21,644 bases of DNA. Origin: a virus. The position numbers were made by a program, and so were the translations under genes. The stretch is taken from IMG/VR virus record IMGVR_UViG_3300042542_005060, positions 1 to 21,644 of that record; one strand, given 5' to 3'. This document shows, piece after piece, positions 1,837 through 21,591 of the stretch; position 1 is the stretch's first letter; every line of letters begins with the position of its first letter. Below the pieces are notes generated by a model. That model saw nothing but the letters and a program-made list of their open reading frames with translations, made no database searches and was not told the origin of the DNA.

Positions 1837-2106
1837 ATGGCAGACAACGTCGACCAGGTCTCGCACCTGGAGATCTTCCGGGCGGTCATCGCCCTTGAGA
1901 CAAAGGTTGACCTGCTGCTGCAGCGGGAGACCAGCAGGGATGAGTCGGAGCAGAAGCGGGACGAGCGGATCAACGCATTGGAGCGCAGCCAGGCCTGGAT
2001 CCTCGGCATCTGCGCTGCCCTCTCCATCCTCGGCCCGATCATCGTGACTGCTGCTGCCCCGCGACTACAGTTCGGACAGCCAGCGACGCACGAGCAGCAT
2101 CGATGA
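1837..2106 (+). CDS. coiled-coil plus single-TM protein (holin- or spanin-like candidate)
   Basis: An 89-aa protein from ATG 1837. An in-frame ATG at 1819 also exists, but a purine-rich GGTGGAG at about 1820-1826 is well placed as ribosome binding site for 1837. Residues 10-50 are charged and heptad-like, predicting a coiled coil. Residues about 52-72 (WILGICAALSILGPIIVTAAA) are one TM helix, followed by a short polar tail. It stands directly before a peptidoglycan-modifying enzyme and within 1.5 kb of the lysozyme, so a role in lysis or membrane anchoring is plausible. Its stop overlaps the next start (ATGA). Confidence 0.65.
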   Translation: MADNVDQVSHLEIFRAVIALETKVDLLLQRETSRDESEQKRDERINALERSQAWILGICAALSILGPIIVTAAAPRLQFGQPATHEQHR

Positions 2107-2612
2107 TCGGTCCCAAGAAGCGGCCTCAGGACTGCGGCTTCAGGCCTGGCGACAGCCACCTCATCGTCAACGACATCACCGAGCGGGCGAAGGCCTTCAG
2201 CTTCTCTGGCCAGCTGCTGTGGGAGATCCCTTGCCTGGCCCGTGGGCAGGGGTCTGACTACGACTGGGCAGGCGTCGGAACCGATACGCCCCCGGGCCTC
2301 TACAAGATCGGCGCGATCTACCGCGACTATGAGATCGATCCGGTGCCGGTCTACAGCCGCAACGTCATGGCCTATGGCTGGTACAGCTTCGACCTGGTGG
2401 AGCTCGAGGGGCAGGAGCAGCGGCACGGTCGGGCCGGCATCATGATCCACGGCGGCGGCAGCGCCTGCGGCTGGCCCGGGGCATGGGAACCACGCCAGCC
2501 CCTGGTGCCGACACTCGGCTGCATCCGTCTCCACAACGCCGACCTGCGCGACCGGATCCTGCCCCTCACCGCCAGCGGTGCTGTCTTCGTCAGCGTCTAC
2601 CAGGAGGGCTGA
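2103..2612 (+). CDS. L,D-transpeptidase (YkuD)-like protein
   Basis: A 169-aa protein. An IMIHGG segment places the conserved His at residue 116, and a TLGCIRLHN segment places the candidate catalytic Cys at residue 140. This His...(S/T)xGC(I/V)R layout is typical of YkuD-fold L,D-transpeptidases, which form or rearrange peptide cross-links in peptidoglycan; DUF2778-type relatives share it. There is no signal peptide or TM segment, so export would need a holin or virion incorporation. Coupled by ATGA to the TM protein upstream and by TGATG to the dioxygenase downstream. A role in cell-wall attack or remodelling during lysis is inferred from the nearby lysozyme. Confidence 0.75.
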   Translation: MIGPKKRPQDCGFRPGDSHLIVNDITERAKAFSFSGQLLWEIPCLARGQGSDYDWAGVGTDTPPGLYKIGAIYRDYEIDPVPVYSRNVMAYGWYSFDLVELEGQEQRHGRAGIMIHGGGSACGWPGAWEPRQPLVPTLGCIRLHNADLRDRILPLTASGAVFVSVYQEG

Positions 2613-3154
2613 TGGAATTGGCTGACCTGGTTCGCATCTACCCGGCGGTGCTCAGCCCCGCCACCTGCCGCAATCTGATCGAAGGCTTCGAGCATCGCAA
2701 CCATCTGCAGCATCGGATCGACGATGATGACTGCCGGGTCACGAAGCTGAACCTCAGCCACGACTGGCCCGAAGCGCAACTCGACATCCTCGATGCTCTG
2801 ATCCCACAGTTCGAGGCCTACTCCTCTGACCTGGCCATCGGCCCACACCAGTGGCCCGATGACCTAACGCTGGAGAACATCTGGATCAGCCGCTACAACC
2901 CGCACGTCGACGAATGCCCTGAGCATGTTGACGTGGTCGACCACGGCACCGCCCGGCGGTTCCTGTCGATCCTGATCTGGCTCAACGACGTCCGCGACGG
3001 CGGCGAGACCGACTTCCCGCTGTGGCGGCAGGCGGTTCGACCGAGTGCCGGTAGTCTGTTGCTGTTCCCCCCGATGTGGCCCTGGCTGCATGCTGGGAGG
3101 ACGCCACGGTCAGGCCCGAAGTACGTCCTGACCACCTTCCTCCACTACTGCTGA
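2612..3154 (+). CDS. 2-oxoglutarate/Fe(II) dioxygenase, prolyl 4-hydroxylase-like
   Basis: A 180-aa protein starting at ATG 2612, set by the TGATG overlap and an AGGAGG site at 2602-2607. The double-stranded beta-helix iron site is visible: H105-x-D107 in EHVDVVD, then H160 in WLHAG, and K170 ten residues later as probable 2-oxoglutarate ligand. A GGETDFP motif (about 130-136) and RPSAGSLLLFP (about 143-153) match prolyl-hydroxylase-type enzymes. Such small dioxygenases recur in cyanophage genomes; the substrate is usually unknown. It lies between two lysis-region genes, so it is an accessory gene transcribed late. Substrate not predictable. Confidence 0.85.
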   Translation: MELADLVRIYPAVLSPATCRNLIEGFEHRNHLQHRIDDDDCRVTKLNLSHDWPEAQLDILDALIPQFEAYSSDLAIGPHQWPDDLTLENIWISRYNPHVDECPEHVDVVDHGTARRFLSILIWLNDVRDGGETDFPLWRQAVRPSAGSLLLFPPMWPWLHAGRTPRSGPKYVLTTFLHYC

Positions 3155-5524: not shown

Positions 5525-6751
5525 TCAGACGGTCAGCACCGTCCCATCGAATGCCGCGAACGACGCAGCCCCCAGCGGCTCCGGCGTCCTGGCCTTCAGG
5601 TTGCGCAGGAATGACACCGAATGCGCCATCCCCAGCTGCAGGCCTGTGAGCAGGCTCGACCGGGAATGGATCCCCGCCCAGCTGCGGCCGACGGCCAGGG
5701 CCCACATCATCTGCCGGATCTCGTCATGCACCGACGTGATCTCCAGCGACGGCAGCGGACCATCAGCGAACCATGCCAGCAGGATCCCAGCGCAGGCGCC
5801 GGCGATCGTCGCATGGCCGCTCGGATAGTCCGGATGCAAGGGTGAGCCCTCGGCATAGGTCATCGGCAGATAGCCGCCGGTCTGCTGCACCAGCCAGCCG
5901 CCGATCTCCAGGAAGTCCCGGTGCAGGTTGCCCTGGACCCCTTCACGCCACAGCCGCTCAGGGCGCTCCCTCCCCCGCTGGAACTTCACCGCCCAGCAGG
6001 ACCGCATCGCCTGCTCGGTGACTGTCGCCAGGGCGCACTGCAGCGCCAGGACGCCGCCGCCGGTCACGAATGGCGCCTCGGCGATCATGGCCGGGAACCT
6101 CGAGCTCAGCCGTGCTCCAGATCCCAGCAGCTGGCAGGCGACGAACAACGGGATCAGGTAAGGCTGGTCTTGATGGACCAGGCTGGCCAGGGCGCGACCG
6201 CTCCACCGTCGCTGCTGTTCGAACTGCTGCCGCTCGCTCACCTGCCCCAGCTGCAGAGCCTCATAGGCCGCCGGTGTGGCGCCATAGCGGCCACTCCTGA
6301 TGAGCGGCTCGAACGACGCGCGGTTCCATCCCGTTGGGATCGACTGCCACAGCAGAGCGCTGGTGCGCCGCCCCAGATCGCCGGGGCCATAGCGGAACAT
6401 GCCGCCAACACCCGGACGGGTCAGGATGCCAGGGAATGCACCGAGGATCTCCGCGATCCGTCTGGCATCGGGATGGCTGTCGAGGCTGTCAATGTCCTGA
6501 TCGATCAGCCACTGCATCGCAGCGACCTCGAGCAACTCGCCGGCAGTCTCACGGCTGTCATCGGCCGGCGGTGCGGGCACGGTGGCATCGAGGCTGGTGT
6601 CGGTCCGTCGGAAGCCGGCGCGGGGGTTGACTATCTTGCGTGGTCCCCAGATGTGGAACGCCGCGAGTCGTTTGGTCATGTCGGCGAACGGCAGCGCCAG
6701 CAGCTGCTGCAGTCCGTAGCCGTCGTAGCCCTTGGAGAAGACGAGATTCAT
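5525..6751 (-). CDS. vanadium-dependent haloperoxidase
   Basis: A 408-aa protein of the PAP2/haloperoxidase fold. The vanadate-site signature is complete: K256-x6-R263-P264 (KFQRGRERP), P310-S-G-H313 (YPSGHAT) and R356-x5-H362 (GRSWAGIH), with spacers of 45 and 41 residues, within the family's usual range. The Tyr before PSGH and the HAT after it recall bromoperoxidase-type enzymes. The family oxidises halides with H2O2 to hypohalous acids; some relatives are acid phosphatases. It is shorter than algal bromoperoxidases. The residue four after H362 is Ser, where many members have Asp. No signal peptide. Last gene of a leftward cassette, 53 nt after the RTX gene. Accessory cargo rather than a phage core function. 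Confidence 0.88.
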   Translation of the reverse strand: MNLVFSKGYDGYGLQQLLALPFADMTKRLAAFHIWGPRKIVNPRAGFRRTDTSLDATVPAPPADDSRETAGELLEVAAMQWLIDQDIDSLDSHPDARRIAEILGAFPGILTRPGVGGMFRYGPGDLGRRTSALLWQSIPTGWNRASFEPLIRSGRYGATPAAYEALQLGQVSERQQFEQQRRWSGRALASLVHQDQPYLIPLFVACQLLGSGARLSSRFPAMIAEAPFVTGGGVLALQCALATVTEQAMRSCWAVKFQRGRERPERLWREGVQGNLHRDFLEIGGWLVQQTGGYLPMTYAEGSPLHPDYPSGHATIAGACAGILLAWFADGPLPSLEITSVHDEIRQMMWALAVGRSWAGIHSRSSLLTGLQLGMAHSVSFLRNLKARTPEPLGAASFAAFDGTVLTV

Positions 6752-6804: not shown

Positions 6805-7389
6805 TCAGATCACCGCGAAGCAGGAGCTGTCGAGGCCCTGGGCCCGCGACTGCGCGAACACCACCGCAGCACCGTTGCCGATGCCGTCGGCGTCGAACCA
6901 GAGCTGATTGGTGGCGTCGCGGAACACCGTCGCGCCAGCCCCCAGGGCAGCACCCTCGGCGAACTCCAGGGCGGTGCCGGCGGCGATGCCGAAGGCGGCA
7001 CCAGACAGGGCCATGGTGTCGCCCTGGGCCCGGCTGAAGTCCTCGATGATGTCGGCGTTGAGCTGGCCGTGGGCGTCGAACACGAAGGTGTCAGCACCGC
7101 GGCCACCGATCAGGCGATCTTGGCCCCGGCCGCCGTTCAGCAGGTTGTCGCCCGTGTTGCCGGCGATCACCTCGGCCTTGTCGGTGCCGGTGGCGTCAAT
7201 GGCGGCGCGGCCCGTCAGCACCAGGTACTGGGCATTCGAGGCGGCCATGTCGAAGCTGATGGACGAGACCACGATGTCGCGGCCTTCGCTGCCGAGGATC
7301 TGGTCCCCGGCGTTGTTGATGATGAACTGGTCGGTCTCGCCGGCGACACCGGTGAGGACGTCGGCGCGGGAGGTTCCAGAGATGAGCAT
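6805..7389 (-). CDS. RTX-type calcium-binding protein, type I secretion substrate-like
   Basis: A 194-aa protein. Residues 77-104 hold glycine/aspartate nonapeptides (GNTGDNLLN, GGRGQDRLI, GGRGADTFVF), the Ca2+-binding beta-roll signature. Next come ADIIEDFSRAQGDTMALSG and LWFDADGIGNGAAVVFA, matching the serralysin-type C-terminal domain, and the protein ends in hydrophobic FAVI as in ABC-exporter (type I) secretion signals. The N-terminal 75 residues hold further weak repeats and no catalytic domain. It resembles a stand-alone secretion or adhesion module. It lies just upstream of the haloperoxidase on the same strand, suggesting joint expression; physical association is speculation. No exporter is encoded in the window. 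Confidence 0.82.
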   Translation of the reverse strand: MLISGTSRADVLTGVAGETDQFIINNAGDQILGSEGRDIVVSSISFDMAASNAQYLVLTGRAAIDATGTDKAEVIAGNTGDNLLNGGRGQDRLIGGRGADTFVFDAHGQLNADIIEDFSRAQGDTMALSGAAFGIAAGTALEFAEGAALGAGATVFRDATNQLWFDADGIGNGAAVVFAQSRAQGLDSSCFAVI

Positions 7390-10466: not shown

Positions 10467-10617
10467 GCTGCGCCAGGTACATCTCCGCCAGGTAGAGGTC
10501 CTCGCAGCTGCGCGCCTGGTCGCCCACCACCGCGCGGTAGTAGGGCTTCCCCTGGTCGTCCTCCCACTGCTCGATCCGGCCGCGGCCGATCGGCCATTCC
10601 GTGATGACCCGTCCCAT
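10408..10617 (-). CDS. 69-aa hypothetical protein
   Basis: Start ATG 10617 overlaps the dCTP-deaminase-like stop (ATGA). Sequence: an N-terminal strand-rich part (VITEWPIGRGRIEQWEDDQG, KPYYRAVVGDQ) and a helix (CEDLYLAEMYLAQLTAAAE), then a low-complexity Pro/Gly/Ser tail. Last gene of the long leftward early operon. Its final 59 nt overlap the end of the rightward 10206 gene. Function unknown. Confidence 0.6.
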   Translation of the reverse strand: MGRVITEWPIGRGRIEQWEDDQGKPYYRAVVGDQARSCEDLYLAEMYLAQLTAAAEKRGSPPPSGGGDR

Positions 10618-11132
10618 CAGCCCCGGCTCCCCTGCACGCCCTGGTCGCCGTTGTAGCGGCCGGTGACCGCATAGCTGCGATCCGGTGCTGCCGCCATCTG
10701 GTGGAACACCATCTGGCCGATCTTCATCCCAGGCCACAGCCTGATCGGCTGCAGCTGCCGCACGTTCTTCAGCTCCAGCGTCAGGCGGCTGCCGTGCCAC
10801 CCCGGGTCGCACCATCCCGCCAGCAGGTGCTGCAGACCCTCGCGGGCCCGGCTCGACTTCAGCACGAACCGCGCGGCCACGAAGTCCGGTAGGGCGAACG
10901 TCTCGCGCGTCGAGGCCAGCACGAACTGCCCCGGCACCAGCAGGTAGGGCCGCCCCTCGTCGTGGTCGCCCAGGGGGTAGGGCCGCAGCTCCGGCCCCTC
11001 CGCGCTCTCGATCAGGAGCTGATCGCTCAACAGCAGGTCATAGCTCGCTGGGTTCAGCTGCTCCTCGTTGAACGGCCGAATCATCCCCTGCAGGGCAGCC
11101 GCCTTGATCATCCAATCGGGCAGAACAGTCAT
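10617..11132 (-). CDS. dcd: dCTP deaminase/dUTPase-family protein
   Basis: A 171-aa protein of the trimeric dUTPase fold. LPDWMIK start, NPASYDLLL (about 27-35), TRETFALP then KSSRAREGL (substrate-binding Ser and Arg), GWCDPGWHGSRLTLELKN (conserved DPGW and the candidate catalytic Glu in LEL), and a closing GRYNGDQGVQGSR loop. All are landmarks of dCTP deaminases, which turn dCTP into dUTP (or dUMP in bifunctional forms). In a phage this adjusts the pyrimidine pool for DNA synthesis. The N-terminal codons overlap the 11038-11256 gene. Confidence 0.85.
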   Translation of the reverse strand: MTVLPDWMIKAAALQGMIRPFNEEQLNPASYDLLLSDQLLIESAEGPELRPYPLGDHDEGRPYLLVPGQFVLASTRETFALPDFVAARFVLKSSRAREGLQHLLAGWCDPGWHGSRLTLELKNVRQLQPIRLWPGMKIGQMVFHQMAAAPDRSYAVTGRYNGDQGVQGSRG

Positions 11133-18340: not shown

Positions 18341-18540
18341 ACGCTCACCCAGACCCTCGCGTCCGTGAGCTGCGCGACTCCGTCGCCTGGTGCGCCGGCG
18401 TCTCCTACGAGCGTCGCCGCATCGGTGAGCTGATCCGCCAACGCGCCATCGCCCTCCGCCAGCTTCCAGGCCCCACCTCCCGCACCGTGCAGGCCGAGCT
18501 CAACCGCCTCGCCACGCTCATCGAGGACCTTGACGAATGA
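18337..18540 (+). CDS. 67-aa helical hypothetical protein
   Basis: ATG 18337 (MNAHPDPRVRELRDSVAWCA). Two long basic helices: YERRRIGELIRQRAIALRQL and TVQAELNRLATLIEDLDE. A helical-hairpin design that could bind nucleic acid or the primase. Its TGA overlaps the primase ATG at 18537-18540, so expression of the two is coupled. Confidence 0.65.
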   Translation: MNAHPDPRVRELRDSVAWCAGVSYERRRIGELIRQRAIALRQLPGPTSRTVQAELNRLATLIEDLDE

Positions 18541-20720
18541 CGGCTCAGCTCCTTGAGCAGCTCCAGGCTCTACCTGACGACTGGCCCCTCGTGGCCGTCG
18601 ACGGCCGCAAGCGCCCCTACCAGGACGCATGGCAGGAGCACCCCCTCACCAAGGCGGACGTGGCCGCCGAGATCCGCGCCGGTCGCGCCAAGGCCGTCGG
18701 CGTCCTCGCTGGGCCCCCCTCAGGTCTCCTCTTCGTCGATCACGACGGGATCAGCGCCACCAAGAAGCTCGAGGAGCTCGGCCTCCCCCTCCGCGACCTG
18801 CCCAAGTCCCTCGCCATGACCTCGGGCAAGGACGGTCGCTTCCAGATCATCTACCGCATCCCCCCTGACTTCTGGCCCGCCCTCCGTGGCCGCCGCGTTT
18901 TCAAGACCGGTGCAACCGACGCCCAGGGCAAGGCCGAGCAGCTGGAGCTCCGGTGGACCGGCCATCAGTCGGTCGTCGTCGGTGCTCATCCTGAAACCTC
19001 CGGATACCGCTGGCTCCGCGGCCGCGGCCCCACCGACCAGGCCCTCGCCGACGCTCCCACCGCCCTCATCGAGCTGCTGCTCGATCAGCCCGACCCCGAG
19101 CCCGCACCGCTGCTCACGCCCGACGCGCTGCCCCCACCGCCCGAGGGCACCACCCTGCCGCTGCTCGACTTCGTCTCCCGCGACTCCCGCGACCTCGTCG
19201 ACTCCGGCGGCACGCCCGGGGCATGGAACGACGACCAGCTCCGCCTCGCCCTCGACCTTCGCGGCACCGAGGCCTGGATTCGCGCTCAGGGCCACACCCC
19301 AGACATCAGCGCCAGCCAGGCCTACGCCCTCCACGTCCAAGCCGCCCGGGCCAAGGCCCGCGACTTCGACGAGAAGAAGGCCTGGCGGCGCTTCGACGGG
19401 GCCGAGTCACGCTCCTGCAGGCCCTCGACGCCAGAGGACAAGCTCGAGGATCGCCTCCGCTATCACACCCGCACCGCACGGACCGTCCTGCCGCCGCCCA
19501 GGCCCCAGGAGCAGGCCAGCCAGGCCAGCCATCCGGAACCCCAGCAGCCCTACGCCCCGGCGCTCTCCAAGCCTCAGAAGCTCGAAGCTGCGGAGCTCCT
19601 CTTCATGCTCCGCCATCAGGCCGCCGACGGGCAGCGCATCCGATGGAACACCTTCCACCAGCAGGTCGAGCTCGATGGCGCTCCCCTCGAAGGTGCCGAG
19701 CGCTTCTACCTCACCCTCGCCGATCAAGGCTTCAAGGTCTCCAAGGACCTCGCCATCGACGCTCTCGTTCAGGTCGCCCGCGAGAACCCATACGACCCCG
19801 TCACCCTCTACCTCGAACACGTCGCCGCCACCGTCGCCCCCGCCTACATCGACGGTCTCGCCACCGCCTACCTCCGGCCTGAGGACGCTGCCCACGGCCA
19901 GACGACCCTCTACGACGCCATGCTCCGCTGCACCCTCATCGGGGCCGTTCGCCGCGCGTTCGAGCCCGGCACCAAGCACGACACCACCCTCATCCTCTCC
20001 GGCGATCAGGGGGCCCGGAAGTCATCCTTCTGGTCCGTCCTGGGCGGCCCCTTCTTCTCCGACTCCCTCGGCGACCTCAGCAGCAAGGACGACCTCCTCA
20101 AGCTCCACCGCTCCTGGATCATGGAATGGGCCGAGCTCGACCACGTCACCTCCCGCAAGCACGCCGGCCAGGTGAAGGCGTTCCTGACGACCCAATCCGA
20201 CCTGTTCCGCGCGCCCTACGGCAAGGCCGTCGAGAACAACCCGCGCCGCGGCATCATCGTCGGCTCGACCAACCGCTCCGAAGGCCTCTTCTGCGACGAC
20301 ACAGGCAACCGCCGCTTCTGGGTCATCCCCACCACCCGCAACGAGGCCGATCCGATCGACACCGGCACCCTCGCCGCCGAGCGGGACGCCATCTGGTCCG
20401 CTGCGGTCGCTGCCTACCGTGCCGGCGCACAGAACTACCTCCCCCTCGACCTCGCCCTCACCGTCAACCACGAGAACGAGGCCTATCAGCTGGCCAACCC
20501 CTGGCGCGATCCGATCGAGACCTGGCTGCGCGTTCCAGCCAACCACGGCCGCGTCATCACCAGCGAGCTGCTGCTCACCGAGGCCGTCCAGAAACCGGTC
20601 GAGCGCCAGACCCGTGCCGACCAGATGCAGGTTGGAAGCATCATGCGCGAGCTCGGTTGGGCCAAGCGCCGCACGACCCACGATGGCCGGCTCAAATGGG
20701 TGTTCTTCCAACCTCACTGA
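18537..20720 (+). CDS. replication primase-helicase: Prim-Pol-like N-terminus plus VapE/D5-like ATPase
   Basis: A 727-aa protein. Residues 15-150 are like the bifunctional primase-polymerase domain: an acidic pair in LLFVDHDG (D68, D70) and a late ELRWTGHQSVVVGAHP strand set. A Pro-rich linker (about 185-205 and 318-345) follows. The C-terminal ~370 residues are a VapE-type P-loop ATPase: Walker A GDQGARKSS (489-497), then KLHRSWIMEWAELDH, KAFLTTQSDLFRAPYGK and GSTNRSEGLFCDDTGNRRFW. It probably primes and unwinds DNA at the phage origin. The last 90 nt carry the first iteron copies of the adjoining candidate origin. Confidence 0.88.
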   Translation: MTAQLLEQLQALPDDWPLVAVDGRKRPYQDAWQEHPLTKADVAAEIRAGRAKAVGVLAGPPSGLLFVDHDGISATKKLEELGLPLRDLPKSLAMTSGKDGRFQIIYRIPPDFWPALRGRRVFKTGATDAQGKAEQLELRWTGHQSVVVGAHPETSGYRWLRGRGPTDQALADAPTALIELLLDQPDPEPAPLLTPDALPPPPEGTTLPLLDFVSRDSRDLVDSGGTPGAWNDDQLRLALDLRGTEAWIRAQGHTPDISASQAYALHVQAARAKARDFDEKKAWRRFDGAESRSCRPSTPEDKLEDRLRYHTRTARTVLPPPRPQEQASQASHPEPQQPYAPALSKPQKLEAAELLFMLRHQAADGQRIRWNTFHQQVELDGAPLEGAERFYLTLADQGFKVSKDLAIDALVQVARENPYDPVTLYLEHVAATVAPAYIDGLATAYLRPEDAAHGQTTLYDAMLRCTLIGAVRRAFEPGTKHDTTLILSGDQGARKSSFWSVLGGPFFSDSLGDLSSKDDLLKLHRSWIMEWAELDHVTSRKHAGQVKAFLTTQSDLFRAPYGKAVENNPRRGIIVGSTNRSEGLFCDDTGNRRFWVIPTTRNEADPIDTGTLAAERDAIWSAAVAAYRAGAQNYLPLDLALTVNHENEAYQLANPWRDPIETWLRVPANHGRVITSELLLTEAVQKPVERQTRADQMQVGSIMRELGWAKRRTTHDGRLKWVFFQPH

Positions 20721-20881
20721 GCAGGTTGGAAAGCCGAAACCCCTTGTCCCACCTGCCTTCTTCTAACCTATCTAACCTTCTAACCTAAAGGATAAAAGGA
20801 GAATAGAAGGGGGAGAAGAGGGGGGTTACGGCCCGCGTAGCCCACGAATGGAAGTTGGTCGGAGGTTGGAACAGGTTGGAA
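20629..20881. repeat. AGGTTRGAA iteron cluster, candidate replication origin
   Basis: Eight copies of a 9-bp unit lie within 253 bp. AGGTTGGAA occurs on the plus strand at 20629-20637, 20723-20731, 20863-20871 and 20873-20881. The reverse unit is TTCCAACCT at 20706-20714, TTCTAACCT at 20761-20769 and 20778-20786, and ATCTAACCT (one mismatch) at 20770-20778. The copies at 20706 and 20723 form a perfect 9-bp inverted repeat around the primase stop. Between the groups lies an A/G-rich tract (about 20787-20826), the most A-rich stretch of this part. Iterons plus easily melted DNA beside a primase gene is the usual plan of a phage origin. No gene fits in 20721-20922. Confidence 0.65.
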
Positions 20882-20922
20882 GCTCACCTCGCACCTACCC
20901 TTCCCTCAGCACCTGGGCCCAC

Positions 20923-21591
20923 ATGATCCGCCTCGATCTCGATACATCAGGCCTCACGGCCGCCCAGGGCTTCTTCGCTCGCGTCACCGATCAGCTCCCC
21001 TTCGCTTCCTCCCTCGCCCTCAACCAGACCGCTCGCCAGGTCCAGCTCGCCTTCCGCGATCAGACCGCCATCTCCTTCTCCTCACCCACAGCCTTCACTC
21101 GTTCCGCCTTCCGCTACACCAAGTCGACGAAGGCCAACCTCATCGCCGAGGTGTTCCCCTCCCCCGACCGCGCCTACATCGCCACCCAGTCCTTTGGTGG
21201 TCAGCGTCGCTGGAAGGAGTACGAGGGCTTCATCCGTGGTCTCGCTGCCTCCTCTGGTTCAGCCCTCCCCGACCGCCAGCTGGTGCCCACCGCCCTCGCG
21301 GTCAATGCCGCCGGCAACCCGAAGCGAAACCTCTTCGGTCAGATCGAATCTCGCCTTTCCACCACCGACCCCGGCGGCTTCTTCATCGGCACCCCTCGAG
21401 GTGGCAAGCGTGGCCCTGGTGTCTACCGTCGCTCCCGCGGTCGCCTCTTCCCCTACTTCCTCACGGTCGAACGTCAGCCGACCTACGCCCCTCGTTTTCC
21501 GTTCGAGCGCGTCGGTCGTCAGACCGTCGCTCGTGTTTTCAACACCAACCTTTCGGCCGCGATCGATCGGGCCATTGCCACCGCTCGATGA
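20923..21591 (+). CDS. putative minor tail/head-tail joining protein
   Basis: A 222-aa protein from ATG 20923 (MIRLDLDTSGLT). The frame opens at 20848, but that part is iteron DNA. Landmarks: LPFASSLALNQTARQVQLAF, SPTAFTRSAFRYTKS, AEVFPSP, FGGQRRWKEYEGF, then FFIGTPRGG and GVYRRSRGRLFPYF before a basic end. The PFAxxxALNxTA...TxFT...GGxRxxKxxE layout resembles a phage structural family, loosely like lambda-type minor tail protein Z; the link is uncertain. It lies alone after the replication genes, next to the cosQ-like site, where late structural genes would begin. Confidence 0.5.
   Translation: MIRLDLDTSGLTAAQGFFARVTDQLPFASSLALNQTARQVQLAFRDQTAISFSSPTAFTRSAFRYTKSTKANLIAEVFPSPDRAYIATQSFGGQRRWKEYEGFIRGLAASSGSALPDRQLVPTALAVNAAGNPKRNLFGQIESRLSTTDPGGFFIGTPRGGKRGPGVYRRSRGRLFPYFLTVERQPTYAPRFPFERVGRQTVARVFNTNLSAAIDRAIATAR

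Follow-up and report, generated by a model that had tools for sequence, protein, structure and literature searches.

Near the right end of a 21,644-nucleotide viral sequence (IMG/VR record IMGVR_UViG_3300042542_005060, positions 1 to 21,644; the whole of this stretch is referred to as the window), a compact array of short repeats spans the end of a vapE gene and the gap that follows it. The questions raised by this locus are whether the array is an origin of replication and, if so, which protein recognizes it. The evidence discussed below makes it very probable that the array is the replication origin of this cyanophage and that the initiator is the VapE/primase protein itself, with the C-terminal winged helix of this protein binding the 9-bp units and the wing hairpin reading their variable bases.

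The unit AGGTTRGAA occurs within positions 20629-20881 in seven exact copies and one near copy, and the search of both strands of the 21,644-base record detected no exact copy outside this interval. The original prediction gave the same copy numbers, with less than one occurrence expected by chance; on recounting, the chance expectation is 0.09 per record, and the maximum in 100 dinucleotide shuffles is one. The components of the array are as follows:

20629-20637, plus strand: iteron 1, AGGTTGGAA, exact, within vapE (codons 698-701)
20706-20714, minus strand: iteron 2, AGGTTGGAA, exact, within vapE (codons 724-726, FQP)
20723-20731, plus strand: iteron 3, AGGTTGGAA, exact
20761-20769, minus strand: iteron 4, AGGTTAGAA, exact, left core cluster
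20770-20778, minus strand: iteron 5, AGGTTAGAT, near copy with one mismatch, left core cluster
20778-20786, minus strand: iteron 6, AGGTTAGAA, exact, left core cluster, adjoining the tract
20787-20826, plus strand: AT-rich to G-rich purine tract, the putative melting/loading region; the window extreme for purine content, conserved in 115 loci and invertible
20863-20871, plus strand: iteron 7, AGGTTGGAA, exact, right cluster
20873-20881, plus strand: iteron 8, AGGTTGGAA, exact, right cluster

The arrangement described in the original prediction was recovered in all its parts: a perfect inverted pair (20706-20714 and 20723-20731) brackets the primase stop codon (20718-20720), the copies within 20761-20786 form a head-to-tail triplet, and a 10-bp tandem pair is found at 20863/20873. 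A scan of 14 genomes for the head-to-tail pattern, which is too strict, produced one match. The array is located between two same-strand genes, the downstream neighbor being a tail gene, and two of the eight iterons (20629-20637 and 20706-20714) lie inside the vapE coding sequence. Because these two units are part of the reading frame, the DNA word dictates the amino acids at these sites, as illustrated by FQP in the window vs FLP in locus L078, where FFLP takes the place of FFQP because the embedded unit changes.

The tract between the two groups of units had been described as a low-GC purine tract; the purine character stands (92.5% purine, the highest value for any 40-mer in the window), but the low GC content does not (47.5% GC). 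AT content is highest in the 40-mer that begins at 20769 (70% AT, the window maximum); the AT-rich part is where the triple repeat and the start of the purine tract overlap. Across the 115 loci, the unit closest to the tract is a minus-strand copy on the left side (101 of 106 cases) and a plus-strand copy on the right side (108 of 112). With respect to the gene strand, 66 loci have a purine tract and 49 a pyrimidine tract, and the position of the AT-rich part changes accordingly; given that the strands of the units stay constant, the AT-rich/purine block flips as a whole and the symmetry of the units is retained. At least 11 (about 11) switches of block orientation map to the helicase tree. 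The TAG/TAA runs seen in three loci (L067, L072 and L074) were considered as DnaA-trios, but this reading does not hold because such runs are too rare: runs of five or more [TA]A[GA] triplets are present in only 5 of 116 loci, and the run in the window consists of three, on the minus strand.

Comparison with related phages shows that the array is a conserved feature of this locus with a variable sequence. Repeats are present at the corresponding place in viral contigs, in a Cyanobium MAG contig (L088, 80% identity) and in Synechococcus phage S-LBS1 (64%); the original prediction requires repeats in the same gap of phages with the same primase, and these are present, with a different unit in each. 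The units share the frame AGGTnRGnn, the variable bases of which differ among phages and agree within each: AGGTTRGAA in the window, AGGTTGGCA in L012, AGGTTGGTA in L020, AGGTTGGGACA in L021, AGGTAGGGCA in L026 and L048, AGATAGGAC in L061, AGGTGGGG in L075, GGTTAGGCG in L086, and AGGTTGGGCA/AGGTTAGGCA in S-LBS1. Genome-wide counts indicate that the repeats are not scattered: AGGTTRGAA, found in nine records of 15-51 kb, is always near vapE, at a single locus, and, in a 45-kb genome, the nine copies of AGGTTGGTA all fall within 270 bp; the copies of GGTAGGGCA are mostly clustered, apart from a few strays. Records scanned with their own unit showed no second array. Among the 178 close loci, 92 exceed the 99% shuffle null by a conservative statistic (the best single 9-mer, in non-coding sequence only), and the remaining loci have shorter or more degenerate arrays.

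More distant relatives, prophages of Alphaproteobacteria, contain strong arrays of AGGTTGGAC, GGTTGGGAC, GGTGGGACA or GTGGTGACA, either adjoining vapE or placed 0.7-3 kb downstream of it in several Rhodobacteraceae. Some of the Rhodobacteraceae loci seemed to lack repeats, and a wider search placed many of their arrays at this distance (such displaced arrays are found in L125, L131, L133, L139, L143, L146, L147 and L149, all proteobacterial and mostly from Rhodobacteraceae); approximately 15 vapE loci of this type showed no array within reach of the wider search. The linear deposited genome of S-LBS1 (L321, MG271909.1) terminates inside the iteron array, at approximately 34.2-34.64 kb, with about 120 bp of the array repeated at the end, which might be an assembly wrap-around through the origin. 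In Cyanophage S-2L, the gap after the PrimPol gene has no GGTnRG array and contains just two copies of GGTGGCACA; an AG-rich tract, AGGAGAGAGAGAAAAAAAGGGGG, lies between GGTGGCACA and its inverse (L322:4128-4500), and this gap is possibly a degenerate relative of the origin in the window.

An additional line of evidence comes from nucleotide composition. The cumulative GC-skew minimum is located 0.8-2.7 kb from the array in 13 of 21 relatives (35-56 kb), with about three expected within 3 kb, and all these 13 genomes have appreciable skew. The skew turn predicted for this locus thus was found near the array in 13 relatives but not in the other eight (the L086 clade, G016 and G017), which show weak skew and have the minimum at other positions, the L086 clade being almost skewless and hence uninformative. 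In most of the 13 genomes, the skew shifts across the array within a run of same-strand genes, so that the turn does not simply reflect gene orientation; the minimum is usually not in the array but 0.8-1.0 kb downstream, which makes a contribution of codon bias in the next gene probable. Together, the confinement of the repeats, the arrays in relatives and the skew turn support the original identification of an iteron origin of replication.

The gene that overlaps the array encodes a 727-aa protein with Pfam matches to the AEP primase-polymerase (PF09250, 1.6e-16) and VapE (PF05272, 8e-61) families. The sole relative in a PDB profile search was 7pds, "PriRep1 with dsDNA" (E 1e-33), and the same structure was the top Foldseek match of a 399-residue model. 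The relevant features are:

18537-20720, plus strand: Prim-Pol, VapE (AAA+ helicase) and C-terminal winged helix, 727 aa, the putative initiator (Pfam, profile search, Foldseek)
20472-20717, plus strand: C-terminal winged-helix domain, residues 646-727 (AlphaFold2, mean pLDDT 91)
20664-20693, plus strand: predicted specificity residues K710 (20664-20666), R712 (20670-20672) and L719 (20691-20693), from covariation of the wing with the unit bases

In the AlphaFold2 model, residues 693-705 form the recognition helix, and residues 709-715 and 718-724 form the wing strands, so that K710, R712 and L719 are all within the predicted wing hairpin. When compared to PDB in isolation, the winged helix matches residues 271-469 of 7pds_B (Z 5.9) as well as numerous other winged helices. 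Of the segments measured, the wing varies the most (2.18 bits per column), the values for the helicase and the recognition helix being 0.82 and 0.81, respectively.

The window also encodes tail, lysozyme, SSB, RecT and exonuclease genes. A 408-aa protein (5525-6751, minus strand) shows a weak PAP2-superfamily match, just under the Pfam cut-off, and contains an SGHAT motif that recalls vanadium haloperoxidases, which is odd for a phage; directly upstream, on the same strand, is a gene for a 194-aa protein (6805-7389, minus strand) with RTX calcium-binding nonapeptide repeats (PF00353). Further phage genes encode a dCTP deaminase-like protein (10617-11132, minus strand), a YkuD L,D-transpeptidase-like protein (2103-2612, plus strand) and a 2OG-Fe(II) oxygenase-like protein (2609-3154, plus strand).

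Which protein reads the units is suggested by covariation. Numbering the unit A1 G2 G3 T4 N5 R6 G7 N8 N9 and deriving base frequencies from non-coding sequence alone, we scanned 569 VapE alignment columns across 116 distinct C-termini, VapE being the sole phage protein covered. The K710 column is the best of the 569 for base 5 (adjusted R2 0.71, compared with 0.45 for the next column and 0.33 for the 99th percentile), and the L719 column is the best for base 8 (R2 0.45, next 0.34) and for base 9 (0.53); given that the phylogeny is common to all columns, relatedness alone does not account for this ranking. The codons of K710, R712 and L719 overlap no iteron, whereas codons 698-701 and 724-726 do, and for this reason S701 and FQP were excluded from the covariation evidence.

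The pairing follows simple rules. R710 goes with a purine at base 5 (32:1) and K, Q, A or S710 with a pyrimidine (73:5); at position 719, L is accompanied by A in 15 of 17 cases, Q by C in 13 of the 16 decided cases, and R by G in 40 of 54. Residue 710 changed about 15 times on a tree built from the helicase only, and in supported independent pairs base 5 follows this residue in 6.8, opposes it in 0.4 and is the same in 0.8 (sign test, median p 0.03); by a tree-corrected measure, 710 ranks first of 267 columns. The corresponding sign test for L719 had too few supported pairs and is underpowered. In a held-out set of 32 new C-termini with new downstream DNA, which came from three further scans and included S-LBS1, R710 predicted a purine in 11 of 11 cases and K710 a pyrimidine in 17 of 18 (28 of 29 decided, with three ties); S-LBS1 obeys the rules at 710 (K/T), 712 (R/G) and 719 (R/G). 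Among Alphaproteobacteria, Q712 occurs with GGTGAC in 7 of 7 loci, vs 0 of 31 otherwise, these loci being not all phylogenetically independent, and R, K or T712 occurs with GGTnGG in 31 of 31, including L143, where the array is 2.5 kb away. The rule linking residue 710 to base 5 fails in Alphaproteobacteria, R often being paired with T.

This covariation strongly implies that the C-terminal domain of VapE recognizes the iterons. The original prediction named as candidate initiators the primase and several small proteins encoded upstream; the covariation points to the 727-aa Prim-Pol/VapE protein, via its winged helix, and, in a scan that covered VapE only, the small upstream proteins are not needed for this role. 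The helicase cores of L019 (unit AGGTAGGAA) and L033 (unit AGGTTGGAA) are 98% identical and the wings and units differ, which, as judged from these sequences, appears to be a case of fast switching of both. A more specific proposal, which we regard as reasonable although still somewhat short of probable, is that the wing hairpin rather than the recognition helix sets the iteron word, with residue 710 specifying base 5, 712 specifying bases 6-7 and 719 specifying bases 8-9, and that word and wing switch repeatedly on a constant helicase under pressure for origins that are private from co-infecting relatives, satellites and origin-directed nucleases. By analogy with ICP1 Odn acting on PLE iterons, origin-directed interference is a plausible driver of the switching.

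The evidence is compatible with a mechanism whereby the winged helix would dock on the units and the wing would read bases 5-9; the units, pointing outward from the central tract, would seed AAA+ rings on both sides, the AT-rich/purine tract would melt, and the fused Prim-Pol domain would prime in both directions. Unit and wing would change together, providing each phage with a private origin-initiator pair.

Several alternatives have to be weighed against the origin. The units might be VapE sites for copy-number control, incompatibility or handcuffing (like P4 crr), with initiation elsewhere; indeed, all that the covariation shows is recognition of the units by VapE, and the Rhodobacteraceae arrays 0.7-3 kb from the gene indicate that proximity is not obligatory. 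We consider this unlikely because the arrangement of divergent units on either side of a conserved AT-rich/purine tract is that of SaPI/PICI origins, the GC-skew minimum is 0.8-2.7 kb away in 13 of 21 genomes, and the records scanned with their own unit revealed no second array. The location between two same-strand genes could also fit operators for a transcriptional regulator, for example, a small upstream protein, acting on the downstream gene. Such a role seems very improbable, considering that no promoter or terminator match was found in 20600-20960, that the unit bases track the wing residues of VapE above every other VapE column, and that many copies lie in both orientations around the tract, reaching into the upstream gene.

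Repeats can occur in phage pac and cos regions, and the gene next after the array is a tail gene; nevertheless, a terminase/pac or recombination site would hardly account for the covariation with the DNA-binding wing of a replication protein (in the VapE-only scan), for the arrays adjoining vapE, or for the recurrence of the vapE-array pairing in prophages of other host phyla, and we give this possibility almost no weight. About equally negligible is a stem-loop origin of the pRN1/BPP-1 type to which the repeats would be incidental: systems of this type have the same gene class (AEP primase, helicase and winged helix) and an origin 3' of the gene (PMC4234260), but the fold test largely refutes it, as no stable stem-loop was found in the gap 3' of vapE, which folds no better than shuffles (z -0.63), and the conserved, covarying elements are the repeats. 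The iteron origin recognized by VapE is the reading that we retain.

If correct, this reading provides a testable, specific candidate origin for a large family that includes proteobacterial prophages as well as uncultured cyanophages: the 20 C-terminal residues of VapE would allow one to predict the origin and, in part, to read the repeat word. The joint change of initiator and origin specificity would reduce to a short list of residue-base rules, with natural protein-DNA pairs. Our literature search, which covered openly accessible papers, found no account of this origin or of a residue-level code, and the words "repeat" and "origin of replication" are absent from the S-LBS1 paper (PMC6157547).

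The organization of the window is best appreciated by comparison with known systems. The alpha/crr/ori system of phage P4 similarly combines a primase, a helicase and a C-terminal winged helix acting on origin repeats (PMC4234260), but the primase of P4 alpha is a Toprim enzyme and that of the window an AEP Prim-Pol (PF09250), so that the window protein does not belong to the P4 alpha family. The pRN1 ORF904 and BPP-1-type phage proteins share with the window the AEP primase, helicase and winged helix and the origin 3' of the gene (PMC4234260); their origin, however, is a long stem-loop, whereas the window has iterons and no significant stem-loop. In PLE, iterons covary with the DNA-binding domain of a RepA_N initiator, and Odn, an origin-mimicking nuclease of ICP1, selects for iteron change (PMC8263062); unlike in the window, the initiator is the unrelated RepA_N, the iterons are about 30 bp long, and there is no residue-level rule. 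In SCCmec, the isolated C-terminal domain of the initiator helicase Cch2 binds short repeats just downstream of the gene (PMC7581432), although there are three AAGTG repeats, the polymerase/primase is separate and no covariation is reported.

The closest parallel is with SaPI/PICI. The C-terminal domain of the SaPI and SCCmec initiators binds iterons directly 3' of the gene (PMC7581432), SaPI/PICI origins have an AT-rich region with an iteron set on each side, located 3' of the initiator gene (PMC6092414, PMC7581432), and this layout is reported as exclusive to those islands (PMC6092414). The initiator in these replicons, which comprise SaPI rep-ori and the pri-rep-ori of E. coli PICIs, is a helicase, sometimes fused to an AEP primase, with the origin directly 3' of its gene (PMC7581432, PMC6092414), and is homologous to that of the window (7pds by profile and fold; Pfam VapE); the layout is present at 20629-20881 and in most viral relatives, with some Rhodobacteraceae arrays 0.7-3 kb downstream. 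The window differs in that its iterons are 9 bp long and GC-rich, some of them lying in the initiator gene, the purine tract belongs to an invertible block, and wing residues tracking the iteron sequence are identified. A PICI satellite island was considered and rejected as the identity of the window, which is a tailed phage with its own structural genes, encoding tail and other phage proteins, and has as relatives phage contigs of 35-56 kb and the isolate S-LBS1. There is, then, a strong case that the array works like a SaPI/PICI rep-ori, which would extend this origin layout from islands to complete phages.
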